Shown here piece after piece: positions 2,134-39,521 of a stretch of 39,995 nt of DNA. The notes below the pieces were generated by a model, which was not told the origin of the DNA, ran no database searches, and was given only the letters and a program-made list of their open reading frames with translations. Each line of letters starts with the position of its first letter. The first letter of the stretch is position 1. Both the position numbers and the translations under genes were made by a program. This stretch comes from a virus, in IMG/VR virus record IMGVR_UViG_3300025073_000101, positions 1 through 39,995 of that record; one strand, written 5' to 3'.

Positions 2134-2545
2134 TGTCAAACCAACCGAAAAACAAAAAAAAGCTTTTAAAAAGATAGTGGAAAATGGTGGAAACGAAAGT
2201 AGAGCAATGATAGAAGTTGGATATAGTGAAGCGACAGCAAAAACACCACAAAAATTAACAGAGAGTAAAGGATTTAATGAATTACTAAAAAAATATCTTC
2301 CAGATGAAGATTTAACAAAAAAACACAAAGAGTTTTTAAATTCAGAAAAAGAAGAAATAGGAATAAAAGCATTGGATATGGGATATAAACTAAAAGGAAG
2401 CTATGCCCCGGAAAAAAGCCAAAACATAAATGTCAACGCCAACATCAAAGTAGACAATAAAGAAGCTCAAGAAATAGCTGAAAAATACGAACAAGAATTA
2501 TTTAATAAGTTAAAAAATAAAGATGAAAAAAATATTCCACAATGA
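2102..2545 (+). CDS. Putative terminase small subunit
   Basis: The 147-residue product has the pattern of small terminase subunits. A predicted N-terminal helix-turn-helix is formed by 'TEKQKKAFKKIVENGG', 'SRAMIEVGYSEATAKTP' and 'LTESKGFNELL', much like the 'LT.KQ..F...G...A...AGYS..TA' blocks of phage TerS. A charged helical C-terminal part follows. TerS recognises the packaging site and recruits the large subunit. It lies between groES and groEL and overlaps groEL by 23 bases, and the large subunit follows at 4363. The position supports the call; the sequence alone would leave some doubt. Confidence 0.7.
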   Translation: METEKQKKSYNVKPTEKQKKAFKKIVENGGNESRAMIEVGYSEATAKTPQKLTESKGFNELLKKYLPDEDLTKKHKEFLNSEKEEIGIKALDMGYKLKGSYAPEKSQNINVNANIKVDNKEAQEIAEKYEQELFNKLKNKDEKNIPQ

Positions 2546-4070
2546 AACAAAAAAACTCCTAGCGGACGGAGTTAAAGAAGTACACGACATAGTAGCCCCA
2601 ACAATGGGAGGAAAAGGAAAAAACATTGTAATGGATAACGGCTTCGGTAGTGTGATGATTATCAATGACGGCGTAACCATTGCAAAGAATGTAGAATTAG
2701 AAGACGAGATAATGAATGCTGGTGCTACACTAGCCAAGGAGGTAGCAGACAAAACCAACGAAGATAGTGGCGACGGAACAACTACTAGTATTGTATTGCT
2801 TAATTCGTTTCTTCAAGAAATGATGGATAGCGAAAACACAGACCCCAGAGGATTAAGAGAAGAAATAAAAAAAGAACTAAACAAAATCATCAAAGAACTA
2901 GATAAAAGAGCTATCCCAATCACAGAAAAAGACTATGAGAGAATTGCTTACGTGTCTTCACTTAACAAGGACATAGCAAAAGAAGTGGCTAAACTATACA
3001 AAACTTATGGAAAAGACAGCCTTATAAAACTAGAAGAGGGGAAGATTCCAGGCATAACAGTAGAGCAGGTTCCGGGGATAAGACTGAAAACCGGATATAT
3101 GGCACCAGTGTTTATCAACGATATTCGAACTCAAAGCGTTAAATTGGAAGATATCCCGGTACTTTGCACAAAAAAGAAAATAGAATCAGTCAATGACATT
3201 CTTCCACTTCTTGACGGAATGGTTAAAAAAGGAACAAGCAAGATTTGTTTTTTTGTTGAGGACATAAGCAACGAGGTGCTAGGATTTCTTGCTCACAATA
3301 AGCTACAAGGAACACTAGCGGTCAATGTAGTTAAGACAAGCAACACGGATGACATAGCTTCAATAACAGGTGCGAAAGTGGTGAACAACGATAACGGTCT
3401 TCAATTCTCAACCAGAGGTGAAGGATCTCAACCATTAGGAAACTTTGATATTTTAGGAAAAGCGAAAAAGATTGAAAGCGACAAAAGAAAAACAATCGTT
3501 ATCAGTGGAAACAAGAAAGCTATCGAACAGGCTATCAAAGACACCGAAACAGAACTAAACAAGAAGCTAGGAAAAATTGAAGAAATAGAATTAAAAGAAA
3601 GATTAGCACAGTTAAAAGGCGGTGTATCAGTCATTACAGTAGGAGGAGAGAGCGAACAGGAAACCAAAGAGATGAAACTTAAAATGGAGGACGCCTTAAA
3701 CGCCACAAAATCAGCCATAGAGGAAGGAATCATTCGAGGTGGTGGTTTAGAACTATTCGACATCGCAAAGGGCTTAAATCGCAAAAATGAGGCTTCTATG
3801 ATAATGTATGAAGTCTGTCAGTCTCCTATTGAGACAATATTAGCCAATGCAGATGAAAATGTTGATAAAGTATTGATGAAAGTCGGTGAAAAAGGGTATA
3901 ACGTAATAACCAGACAATATGAGGACTTTATCCAGTCAGGAATAATCGACCCGGTCAAAACAACTAAATCAGCATTAAAAAACGCAATCTCAACAGGCTT
4001 GTCTATATTGACAGCCGAAGGAGCTATAATCAATTTAAAACCAAAACAAGATGAAAAAATCGGAAGATAA
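2523..4070 (+). CDS. groEL: GroEL-like group I chaperonin
   Basis: The 515-residue product spans almost the whole of GroEL (about 548). Nucleotide-site motifs are intact: 'MGGKGKN' at 28-34, 'INDGVT' with Asp49, 'GDGTTT' at 83-88, and the catalytic-Asp region 'EDALNATKSAIEEG' (Asp390) followed by GGG at 406-408. The intermediate-domain signature 'ERLAQLKGGVSVI' is present. In the apical domain the conserved stretch after 'VAAVKAPGFGDRRKAML' is shortened to 'KTSNTDDIASITG', a loss of roughly ten residues. The C-terminal Gly-Gly-Met tail is absent and replaced by a charged end. It probably folds phage proteins such as the capsid protein together with the phage GroES; phage GroEL homologues are known, for example in phage EL. 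It starts inside the small-terminase gene. Confidence 0.96.
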   Translation: MKKIFHNETKKLLADGVKEVHDIVAPTMGGKGKNIVMDNGFGSVMIINDGVTIAKNVELEDEIMNAGATLAKEVADKTNEDSGDGTTTSIVLLNSFLQEMMDSENTDPRGLREEIKKELNKIIKELDKRAIPITEKDYERIAYVSSLNKDIAKEVAKLYKTYGKDSLIKLEEGKIPGITVEQVPGIRLKTGYMAPVFINDIRTQSVKLEDIPVLCTKKKIESVNDILPLLDGMVKKGTSKICFFVEDISNEVLGFLAHNKLQGTLAVNVVKTSNTDDIASITGAKVVNNDNGLQFSTRGEGSQPLGNFDILGKAKKIESDKRKTIVISGNKKAIEQAIKDTETELNKKLGKIEEIELKERLAQLKGGVSVITVGGESEQETKEMKLKMEDALNATKSAIEEGIIRGGGLELFDIAKGLNRKNEASMIMYEVCQSPIETILANADENVDKVLMKVGEKGYNVITRQYEDFIQSGIIDPVKTTKSALKNAISTGLSILTAEGAIINLKPKQDEKIGR

Positions 4071-9088: not shown

Positions 9089-10111
9089 ATGTCAATAGCA
9101 TTAGGACAAAGAGTCGAAACAACGACTCAAACAAGGCTTTTGCCAAAGGTAGTTGACACAATCTTAAATACAAACGTATTTTTGACAAGAATGTTGACAT
9201 CCGCAAAACCTTGGGTAGGACGAAAAATGAAAAAGGCTATCAAATATACCAAAGGTAACGCTGGTAGCTCTTTCTCAGGAATGGATACTTTCTCAACTGC
9301 AGCCAGCGAAACTCGTGTAAATATGGAGTATGACCCTGCTTTCTATGAGATAAATGTAACCCTTCCATTAACAGAACTTGCAGTAAACAAAACAGAAGAA
9401 GGAGTAACCGAACTTATGAGCCTTGAAATGGCTTCACGAGCAGAAGATATGGCTGATGAGCTAGGAGATATTTTTTACAGCGACGGAACAGGAAATGACT
9501 CCAAAGACCCATTGGGACTTGAAGCACTGGTAGATGACGGAACAAACGCTGCAACTATCGGAGGATTGAGCAGAACTACTTATTCCACGCTTAATTCAAC
9601 AGTTACAGCTTCAGGAGGAACTCTAACTTTGGCTAAACTTGATACTCTTTGGGACGCTGTCTCAAGCGGTTCTCAAGAGCCAACAGTAGGAGTTACAACT
9701 GAAACTATATTCTCTCTTTATGGTCAATTATTGAGACCACAAGAAAGAATCAACAAGACTGTTGGAATGACTAAGGGAATGAGCGCAGGAACAGGATTTA
9801 CTGGTCTTGATTACAAGGGTAAAGCTATTTTGAAGGACGAAAAATGTACTTCTGGTGTGCTTTATTTCTTGAACGAAGACTATATTGAATGGAGAGCTCT
9901 TTCTATGCCTGAAACAACTCCTGTTAAATTCAAAGCAACCGACATTGAGGGTAATGATTATTCCGAAGTTATTGGTCTTGGATTTTCTTGGAGCGGATGG
10001 ATTAAACCAATCAATCAAGCTGCTATCGTAGGACACATCTATCTTGGTGGTGAATTGGTAGGATGGAATCCAAAAAGGTCAGGAAAATTGACAGGAATTA
10101 GCGGAATTTAA
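9089..10111 (+). CDS. Major capsid protein, HK97-fold type
   Basis: The 340-residue product directly follows the scaffold. It begins 'MSIALGQRVETTTQTRLLPKV', has the N-arm and long-helix region 'TELMSLEMASRAEDMADELGDIFY', and a beta-rich P-domain. An 'LDYKGKAILKDEKC' and 'LYFLNEDYIEWRA' segment resembles the A-domain strand region of HK97-like capsid proteins. It ends with a basic Gly-rich tail. Codons are a little less AT-rich than in early genes. Translation must be strong, yet the leader is only 'TAATTAACTA...AAACTATG' with no Shine-Dalgarno. The phage GroES/GroEL pair is a plausible folding partner for this abundant protein. That is an inference. Confidence 0.85.
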   Translation: MSIALGQRVETTTQTRLLPKVVDTILNTNVFLTRMLTSAKPWVGRKMKKAIKYTKGNAGSSFSGMDTFSTAASETRVNMEYDPAFYEINVTLPLTELAVNKTEEGVTELMSLEMASRAEDMADELGDIFYSDGTGNDSKDPLGLEALVDDGTNAATIGGLSRTTYSTLNSTVTASGGTLTLAKLDTLWDAVSSGSQEPTVGVTTETIFSLYGQLLRPQERINKTVGMTKGMSAGTGFTGLDYKGKAILKDEKCTSGVLYFLNEDYIEWRALSMPETTPVKFKATDIEGNDYSEVIGLGFSWSGWIKPINQAAIVGHIYLGGELVGWNPKRSGKLTGISGI

Positions 10112-31014: not shown

Positions 31015-31623
31015 TTGTATAGTGGTATCGGGGGTAATCGGCGTCTTTGGGGGGATGACCACGAAATCACAGCAGTAGAATACGACCCAAAGATTGCTAA
31101 AATTTACCAAGATTTTTTTCCAAATGATAAAGTCATAGTCGCAGATGCTCATCAATATTTGCTGGAATATTACAATGAATTTGATTTTATATGGAGCAGT
31201 CCTCCTTGCCCAACACATTCAGTTTGCAATCATTTTTTACACGCACAAGGAAATGTTAGATACCCCGATATGAGTTTGTGGCAAGAAATAGTGTTTTTAC
31301 AGAAATGGTTTAAAGGAAAATGGGTAGTGGAAAATGTTAAAAGTTACTATCCGCCATTGTGGCCACCGAAATTATTAGATAGGCATTATTTTTGGAGTAA
31401 TTTTGAAATATCGGATTTTAAAGTAGAAAGAAATTTCAATATTTGCAAAGCACGAGCAAGTACAAGGAAAAACCAAGAAGAAGATGTGAAAGAATTGGAA
31501 GATTATCATAAAATTAAGTTGCCGTCAGATGCAAAAAATCAGAGATTACTTTTGAGAAATGCAGTTTATCCTGAATTAGGAAAACACATTTTAGATAGTA
31601 TTATTAAAGAAAATAGAGAGTAA
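31015..31623 (+). CDS. DNA (cytosine-5) methyltransferase
   Basis: The 202-residue product has the main C5-methyltransferase motifs: motif I 'LYSGIGGNRRLWG', motif IV 'SSPPCPTHS' with the catalytic Cys at about 65, motif VI 'VVENVKSYY', and a C-terminal 'LLLRNAVYPELGKHI' like motif X. It transfers a methyl group from SAM to cytosine, which may protect phage DNA from restriction. It is shorter than bacterial enzymes (about 300 or more) and has little room for a target-recognition domain. The start is a problem. TTG 31015 cuts into motif I, while the frame upstream reads KILNLYSGIGG with ATA at 31000 in the place of the ATG usual in homologues. Confidence 0.85.
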   Translation: MYSGIGGNRRLWGDDHEITAVEYDPKIAKIYQDFFPNDKVIVADAHQYLLEYYNEFDFIWSSPPCPTHSVCNHFLHAQGNVRYPDMSLWQEIVFLQKWFKGKWVVENVKSYYPPLWPPKLLDRHYFWSNFEISDFKVERNFNICKARASTRKNQEEDVKELEDYHKIKLPSDAKNQRLLLRNAVYPELGKHILDSIIKENRE

Positions 31624-38437: not shown

Positions 38438-39157
38438 ATGAAATATTTATACGGAATACAGCCTACTGGTAAAATACACATAGGAAACTATCTTGGTGGG
38501 ATTAAGGAAGCTATTAAGCTACAAGAAAAACACTATGTAGAATTTTTAATTGCTGATTATCACGCACTAACAACCCAAAAAAGAAGTGATGTTGATGTCT
38601 ATATGCTAAAATTAGAAGAAGATTTATATAGGCTTGGTGCAAAAAAAGTTATATTTCAAAAACCTGAAAATTGTGAGTTAGCTTTTGAAATAATGTGCAT
38701 TACTCCAATGGGAGAAATGAAGCGTATGACGCAATTTAAGGATAAGGGTGGTGGAAATGTTGGGTTATTTGTTTATCCTTGTCTGATGGCTGCGGACATT
38801 ATCCTATCAAAACCAGATTATGTTATTTGCGGTGAAGACCAAACACAACACATTGAATTTTATCATAAAACTTGTAAAAGATTAAAAATAAAACCAGCTA
38901 AAATTAAGCTCACAAAAACATCACGTATAATGTCAATCAAATACCCAACTAAAAAAATGAGTAAGTCTTTGGGAGATGAGCATTGTATTTATCTATTCGA
39001 TGATAATAATAAAAAAATAATGAAAGCTCCAACGACAAAAGAAGGTGTTATAAATTTAAAACAAATAGCAAAAGGACTTGGAATTAGATTTTTTGAAAAA
39101 AATAATAAAAAGTCAAAACAACGTATTATAGAAGCTATAATGGATATTAAAAAATAA
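38438..39157 (+). CDS. Truncated tryptophanyl-tRNA synthetase-like protein
   Basis: The 239-residue product keeps the whole class Ic catalytic core. It has the HIGH-like 'GKIHIGNY' (14-17), 'ADYHALT' (39-45), 'GEMKRMTQFKDK' (92-103), 'YPCLMAADIIL' with the Trp-binding Asp120, 'CGEDQTQH' (131-138) and 'KMSKS' (173-177). These bind ATP and tryptophan and form Trp-AMP. Normal TrpRS is about 330 aa and has a helical anticodon domain of about 130 residues after KMSKS. Here only about 60 residues follow, with 'NLKQIAKGLGIRF' and 'KKSKQRIIEAIMDI', which resemble a SAP or Rho-N-terminal nucleic-acid-binding motif. It may activate Trp for another acceptor or bind tRNA differently. Confidence 0.85.
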   Translation: MKYLYGIQPTGKIHIGNYLGGIKEAIKLQEKHYVEFLIADYHALTTQKRSDVDVYMLKLEEDLYRLGAKKVIFQKPENCELAFEIMCITPMGEMKRMTQFKDKGGGNVGLFVYPCLMAADIILSKPDYVICGEDQTQHIEFYHKTCKRLKIKPAKIKLTKTSRIMSIKYPTKKMSKSLGDEHCIYLFDDNNKKIMKAPTTKEGVINLKQIAKGLGIRFFEKNNKKSKQRIIEAIMDIKK

Positions 39158-39161
39158 AAAA

Positions 39162-39521
39162 GTGAAAAAAAACAAAAAAAGCACACTAATGAAAAAAGCC
39201 GACAGATTGTTTTCAGAATACTGGAGAAACAAAATAGGAAAATGCGAACACTGCGGAAGCAAGGACAATCTACAACTATGCCACATACATACTAGAAATA
39301 TAAGGAAGTTAAGATACGAGCGAAAAAACACCATAGTTATGTGTGCCTCTTGCCACACACACTTTCACAATAAACCACTTGAATTTTCATATTTTGTGGC
39401 AGAAAAAAAAGGAAGAAATATTGTCGACTGGCTGATAAGAGAAAGTAATAATCTTGAACCTTTATCCAATGAATTTTATAGCGAAGTGTTAGAAAGATAC
39501 AAACACTTGACAAACAACTAA
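39162..39521 (+). CDS. HNH/NinG-like zinc nuclease protein
   Basis: The frame starts with GTG 39162; ATG 39189 is the alternative. The 119-residue product has 'KADRLFSEYWRNKIGK', 'CEHCGSKDNLQLCHIHTR', 'RYERKNTIVMCASCHTHFH' and 'KPLEFSYFVAEKKG'. The CxxC ... H ... N ... CxxCH layout with 'R.lrye..N...lC..CH..fh' is that of NinG/Rap-like and HNH proteins, which act on recombination junctions or cut DNA. It lies in the early gene run just after the TrpRS-like gene. Confidence 0.75.
   Translation: MKKNKKSTLMKKADRLFSEYWRNKIGKCEHCGSKDNLQLCHIHTRNIRKLRYERKNTIVMCASCHTHFHNKPLEFSYFVAEKKGRNIVDWLIRESNNLEPLSNEFYSEVLERYKHLTNN

Follow-up and report, generated by a model that had tools for sequence, protein, structure and literature searches.

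Aminoacyl-tRNA synthetase (aaRS) genes in huge phages are already known. As many as 15 synthetases, and as many as 67 tRNAs, were described in one genome (Al-Shayeb et al. 2020, PMC7162821), with no mention of a tryptophanyl-tRNA synthetase (TrpRS) or of shortened enzymes in the main text of that paper. What is new here is that a compact form of TrpRS is shared among phages, arose once, and occurs in contigs of 40-48 kb as well. In E. coli TrpRS, Gln152 and Glu155 read the discriminator base G73 of tRNA-Trp, the loop A223-S227 reads C35 and A36, Lys274 contacts the anticodon base C35, and Y270-G271 limits C34 (PMC12135181). The bacterial Trp identity elements are A1:U72, G73 and CCA (PMC9976931).

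The stretch of DNA analysed (the window) is an IMG/VR record of a viral contig, linear and exactly 39,995 bases long. Because no ORF spanning its ends, a sign of circularity, was seen, this linear record is probably an incomplete fragment. One of its ORFs, with exact boundaries (Table 1), encodes a protein of 239 aa followed by a TAA stop codon. Its match to the Pfam family tRNA-synt_1b was above the cut-off. In a PDB search, G. stearothermophilus TrpRS matched residues 5-212 (E 3e-31). The top NCBIfam model was trpS, with tyrS far behind (2.8e-6). By homology, we place the protein in the TrpRS family (class Ic aaRS). These matches and the presence of all the motifs described below agree with the initial annotation, which had recognised a TrpRS with an intact catalytic core. 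The trpS score of 141.3 bits was below the equivalog cut-off of 176.75, and the best 80 bacterial relatives listed were 322-349 aa long; the protein was therefore filed as a divergent short sub-family and not as a standard trpS equivalog. It contains no Trp residue, but two viral relatives, L039 and L040, contain some, so this is not a rule of the family.

Table 1. Positions of the short TrpRS, its motifs and related features. Coordinates refer to the window unless a locus or genome is named.
Feature	Location	Strand	Evidence
Short TrpRS ORF	38438..39157	+	ORF list, PF00579 1.2e-38, PDB TrpRS, TIGR00233 trpS 4.2e-41
HIGH-type motif HIGN, residues 14-17	38477..38488	+	H14, I15, G16, N17 invariant in 11/11 short members
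MAADI, residues 117-121, indole-binding Asp D120 (E. coli D135)	38786..38800	+	Alignment
GEDQ, residues 132-135	38831..38842	+	G, D, Q invariant
QHIE, residues 137-140, equivalents of E. coli Q152/E155	38846..38857	+	Alignment mapping; role PMC12135181
KMSKS, residues 173-177	38954..38968	+	Invariant in 11/11 short members
Compacted C-terminal helical (anticodon) domain, residues 182-239	38981..39154	+	AF2 pLDDT 90-95, hhalign, alignment
Residues 197-202 (APTTKE), equivalent of E. coli anticodon loop A223-S227	39026..39043	+	Alignment; role PMC12135181
Lys227, equivalent of E. coli Lys274	39116..39118	+	Alignment
Type II tRNA-Trp(CCA), long variable arms (84-86 nt)	L044 8734-8817, L045 9902-9987, L047 6712-6795		
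Second PF00579 proteins	G016:C1:424472-425260 and G017:C1:387641-388423		

Two other genes of the window were noted. A GroEL-like chaperonin of 515 aa (2523-4070; phrog_5725, 5.5e-101) is directly upstream of the terminase gene. Its most similar phage records are ~32-35% identical, and many Flavobacterium phages are among the matches. A Shine-Dalgarno-like motif was found upstream of only 5 of 39 ORFs in the window. This scarcity and the GroEL matches hint at a Bacteroidota-type host, which is unproven. At 31015-31623, a C-5 cytosine methylase profile is matched in its N-terminal part alone (positions 7-112 of 324), and the gene may be a split or degraded methylase.

The same short form (231-245 aa) was found in ten other viral contigs, including phages of 735, 642, 508 and 482 kb. 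In a tblastn search of phage records, the top relatives were the uncultured phages LR756501 (735 kb, 45.8%) and LR756502 (642 kb, 47.1%), which likewise encode short TrpRS proteins (237 and 239 aa, respectively). A profile scan of IMG/VR added L039, on a 47.5-kb contig; L040 and L041, which lie on contigs of 40 and 14 kb and encode the same protein; and L042 to L047, whose contigs range from 19 to 508 kb (L046 is 235 aa with its 5′ end cut off). A scan of viral contigs with the single sequence gave no relatives, and the profile was needed to recover them. Because ten more viral records show this length, a frameshift or mis-assembly can be ruled out. In support of this, the next ORF (39162-39521) is HNH/NinG-like by Pfam and unrelated to the missing C-terminus, just as the initial annotation had remarked.

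The window protein is 60-63% identical to those of L039 and L040. The neighbourhoods of the relatives (~20 kb) have almost nothing else in common with the window except a tail-fibre-like and an HNH-like gene. The TrpRS gene thus appears to move between otherwise unrelated phages, given how scarcely the neighbourhoods of the window and of L039 and L040 match. A bacterial origin of the short form was rejected, since all of the best 80 bacterial matches listed had the lengths given above; a rare cellular short form may exist. To our knowledge, the short phage TrpRS is among the smallest natural forms of TrpRS, and we found no description of it in the open-licence literature. Several short records in the phage collection (e.g. 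OR848865, OR845293), assigned to phages of Listeria, Escherichia, Staphylococcus or Enterococcus, carry a bacterial-type trpS, which looks like contamination with host DNA. Besides the short TrpRS, the phages of 508 and 482 kb have another PF00579 protein each (Table 1). These proteins, encoded 13-27 kb away in open frames of 360-406 aa, are possibly TyrRS.

In a tree of 67 TrpRS sequences, the 11 short members formed one clade (SH-aLRT 99). A 267-aa viral protein, L135, joined at the base of this clade (support 93). L165, a 69% relative of L135, is encoded by a 274-aa ORF, or about 259 aa counted from the aligned start. Both have a nearly normal catalytic domain and a C-terminus shortened as in the short forms. 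Their TT(P/N)EG loop is found, with small changes, also in L039, L040 and L043. From their sequences, L135 and L165 look like intermediates. Between pairs in the huge-phage clade (clade B), dN was 0.14-0.16 and dS 1.1-1.8 (dN/dS ~0.1). The C-terminal 60 codons were also constrained there (dN 0.19, dS 2.8). Because dS was saturated in the window's own sub-clade, selection was judged there from residue conservation. The tree and the codon comparisons demonstrate a single origin of the short forms and purifying selection in the relatives, and the continued selection on the catalytic core that the initial annotation had supposed is borne out in this way for clade B and, judged by the conserved residues, probably also applies to the sub-clade of the window.

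All of the ATP, Trp and KMSKS catalytic residues examined were kept in the window protein, despite identities to relatives as low as 40-45%. The HIGH- and KMSKS-type motifs, the Trp-specific Asp and GEDQ, all named in the initial annotation, were found to be invariant or nearly so in the relatives. For example, the Asp at the position of D120 was present in 80 of 80 bacterial TrpRS (the best 80 listed) and in all short members. The Glu of GEDQ is kept in the sub-clade of the window and replaced in clade B. At the acceptor-end sites, the equivalents of Q152 and E155 are kept in the window (Q137, E140), L039, L040 and L135. In clade B, Glu or Asp is retained, Gln152 is usually lost, and R158 is usually changed too.

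The C-terminus required a different interpretation. It had been taken to lack an anticodon-binding domain and to carry instead about 60 residues with a SAP/Rho-N-like pattern, and neither view held. In the alignment to full-length enzymes, residues about 182-239 fall on, and are homologous to, the helical C-terminal domain of TrpRS. In hhalign, the C-terminal segment of the short family matched the bacterial TrpRS C-terminal domain over all 64 columns (probability 94%, E 2e-8), compared with 32 columns for Rho including Rho_N (probability 4%, E 0.01; three Rho sequences). No SAP or Rho_N domain was matched in hmmscan at E up to 10. The profile comparison and hmmscan together rule out a SAP/Rho-N replacement; the likeness is a weak helix-loop-helix, and the weak match to Rho would explain the first impression. 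The initial annotation had proposed a search for the same fusion in other phages, and the same short form does occur there, in the ten contigs.

The AF2 model of the window protein (mean pLDDT 89.6, with 92-95 in the C-terminus) has a TrpRS fold that includes three confident C-terminal helices (191-195, 201-214 and 223-238). The model of the clade-B protein of L045 (pLDDT 89.8) also ends in three confident helices. In Foldseek, the window model reached a TMq of 0.90 at best and an rmsd of 2.3-2.4 Å against TrpRS-ligand structures, in alignments of ~281 columns on TrpRS chains of ~326. We regard this likeness as supporting but not independent, because the AlphaFold input alignments contained full-length TrpRS.

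Compared with a normal TrpRS, the final ~45 residues are gone and ~25 are lost inside the anticodon domain, in addition to small loops. In the anticodon loop of the window protein, Ala223 and T225 are kept, while D226 is changed to T and S227 to K (in the amino acid numbering of E. coli). Ala223 is kept throughout the short members and Thr225 in the sub-clade of the window. Across the short forms, two of the three loop residues for C35/A36 differ from those of E. coli (D226 is T or N, S227 is K, P or E), and Y270-G271 is not conserved. We counted both, along with the changes at Q152 and R158 in clade B, the trpS score under the cut-off and the lack of a universal phage tRNA-Trp partner, against an active enzyme that charges tRNA-Trp. 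The position of Lys274 is occupied by Lys in 80 of 80 bacterial TrpRS (the best 80 listed) and in all 12 short or intermediate members. The C-terminus therefore looks like a compacted native anticodon domain, shrunken rather than missing, and the intermediates L135 and L165, shortened there in the same way, also speak for this. Because Lys274 and Ala223 are kept while Asp226, Ser227 and Tyr270-Gly271 are altered and the last ~45 residues are absent, anticodon reading is probably reduced, with fewer contacts, rather than abolished. The earlier suggestion of charging without any anticodon reading is to be revised accordingly.

No tRNA gene was found in the window by ARAGORN or Rfam, as reported before (weak Rfam matches, E 1.5-3, were discarded). 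A tRNA-Trp may be encoded elsewhere in this phage, outside the fragment. In the huge-phage relatives, the short TrpRS gene is mostly inside or near tRNA arrays, and five of the eight have tRNA-Trp(CCA) genes less than 4 kb away. Eight such genes were found across loci L002, L042, L044, L045 and L047; between the TrpRS gene and the nearest of them in each locus, the distance ranges from 1 base to about 3.5 kb. In L045, the tRNA-Trp ends one base ahead of the TrpRS start codon. A1:U72 is present in all eight genes and G73 in six of them. These two features occurred together in 9 of 167 scanned tRNAs, comprising 6 tRNA-Trp and 3 of the 159 others. Long variable arms occur in three of these genes (Table 1), so the tRNA body varies with a constant acceptor end and anticodon. 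The huge phages also have 85-90 nt genes for tRNA-His, Lys, Gln, Glu, Thr and Val. These neighbouring tRNA-Trp(CCA) genes, all with A1:U72 and mostly with G73, make it unnecessary to invoke another acceptor for Trp, as had been suggested.

No tRNA-Trp was found in the records of L039, L040 and L135, or in the tRNA clusters examined of the 642-kb phage. As the window lacks one too, a phage tRNA-Trp partner is not universal. The distribution would be expected if many huge phages had a genuine pair of TrpRS and tRNA-Trp and the other phages drew on host tRNA-Trp. The phage tRNA-Trp could also be charged simply by host TrpRS. The only tRNA genes in the contigs of L040 (two copies, L152 and L153) and L135 (L150) are for tRNA-Tyr(GTA); of these, the L040 copy at 9476 and that of L135 carry G1:C72 with A73. 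In L045, a 154-kb phage contig, a tRNA with the anticodon CTA (3119-3191), called tRNA-Pyl by ARAGORN, is a possible amber suppressor. Recoding of UGA to Trp is unsupported as a reason for the gene: stop codons of window genes are TAA, TGA and TAG in 30, 6 and 3 cases, the TrpRS genes of L039 and L040 themselves end in TGA, and the nearby tRNA-Trp have CCA, not UCA.

Sequence comparison establishes the homology, the conservation of catalytic and tRNA-contact residues and, in relatives, the linkage to tRNA-Trp genes. We consider the window protein to be probably an active mini-TrpRS that charges tRNA-Trp. A bacterial TrpRS would have lost ~45 residues at its end and ~25 within the anticodon domain, plus small loops, with the catalytic site kept. 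The compact enzyme would activate Trp with ATP and transfer it to a bacterial-type tRNA-Trp (G73, A1:U72, CCA), whose acceptor end would be recognised by the normal residues and whose anticodon by a minimal three-helix remnant. The substrate is probably a phage-encoded tRNA-Trp in the huge-phage relatives and, as no tRNA was seen there, host tRNA-Trp in the window phage. The supply of Trp-tRNA during infection would become independent of host TrpRS. From these comparisons we infer catalytic activity, tRNA charging and a benefit to the phage. The lineage might further have co-evolved with variable tRNA-Trp bodies (types I and II), with relaxed anticodon reading and a supply partly orthogonal to, and insulated from, host TrpRS, which is possible but rather doubtful.

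The main rival lies within the same mechanism. Charging with Trp might depend mainly on the acceptor end (A1:U72, G73), with the anticodon largely ignored and unusual phage tRNA bodies or other tRNAs tolerated. Such relaxed or altered specificity is in line with the two loop residues replaced in all short members and with the type II tRNA-Trp bodies beside clade-B enzymes; aaRS free of an anticodon domain and with new tRNA targets are known (CysRS* for SelC*, GluQ-RS; PMC9437257). However, Lys274 is invariant, the compact C-terminal domain is under purifying selection, T225 is kept in the sub-clade of the window, and CCA is kept in eight of eight nearby tRNA-Trp genes, so that we think this specificity unlikely.

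Another acceptor, or a decoy, is less likely than relaxed anticodon reading. A TrpRS derivative outside translation might make Trp-AMP or Trp esters for a small molecule, a protein or DNA, or might act as a Trp-sensing regulator. In its favour, tRNA-Trp genes are absent near the members from small phages, and aaRS paralogs with other acceptors exist (PMC9437257). This role is made highly improbable by the retained tRNA-contact residues (the G73 readers and Lys274), by the embedding of clade-B members in tRNA arrays, and by the lack of a conserved partner gene, the window and the ~20-kb neighbourhoods of relatives sharing almost nothing else. Truncated subunits can poison homodimeric enzymes. 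A protein that binds tRNA-Trp or a TrpRS subunit with little catalysis could in this way shut down or protect host translation, and the Glu of GEDQ does vary in clade B. A decoy would not need the catalytic residues examined, all of which are kept at identities down to 40-45%, and we give it very little credence.

The short TrpRS, which arose once and is under strong selection, spans contigs of about 40 kb to a 735-kb phage. The minimum anticodon domain that an aaRS needs, a question so far approached via engineered urzymes, can be examined here in a natural protein. The gene also raises the puzzle of a phage with its own TrpRS and no visible tRNA. We speculate that its own TrpRS might allow a phage to escape host defences that disable TrpRS or tRNA-Trp, or antibiotics that target TrpRS.

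Like bacterial TrpRS (E. coli P00954, G. stearothermophilus 1I6K), the window protein has a class Ic fold with its motifs and the indole-binding Asp, as well as the G73-reading Gln and Glu and the C35-contacting Lys. Unlike them, it is ~95 residues shorter, lacks the C-terminal helices (about 290-334 in E. coli), has a compressed anticodon domain with an altered C35/A36 loop, and scores under the trpS equivalog cut-off. With respect to the aaRS sets of huge phages, the 735-kb and 642-kb genomes carry close, equally short homologues, but the short TrpRS occurs also in the contigs of 40-48 kb.

As in GluQ-RS/YadB and CysRS* (PMC9437257), the catalytic core is kept and the anticodon-binding part is reduced; unlike in these, a compacted domain remains and nothing points to a new acceptor. 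A GluQ-RS-like tRNA-modifying paralog was rejected because the anticodon domain is retained in compact form, as detected by hhalign. Cyclodipeptide synthases (AlbC-type; PMC9437257) are similar in their size near 240 aa, their class Ic fold and the lack of a full C-terminal tRNA-binding domain. In Foldseek, a viral cyclodipeptide synthase was a weak fold match (TMq 0.43). Cyclodipeptide synthases are not known to carry HIGH and KMSKS or to bind ATP. Both motifs are present in the window protein and no such family was matched in the Pfam scan, so this identity was also rejected. TrpRS urzymes and modular constructs (Carter laboratory; PMC4082485, PMC10450160) are likewise minimal TrpRS cores. 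They are engineered fragments, whereas the window protein appears to be a compact enzyme that arose naturally, is under selection and retains a remnant of the anticodon domain.
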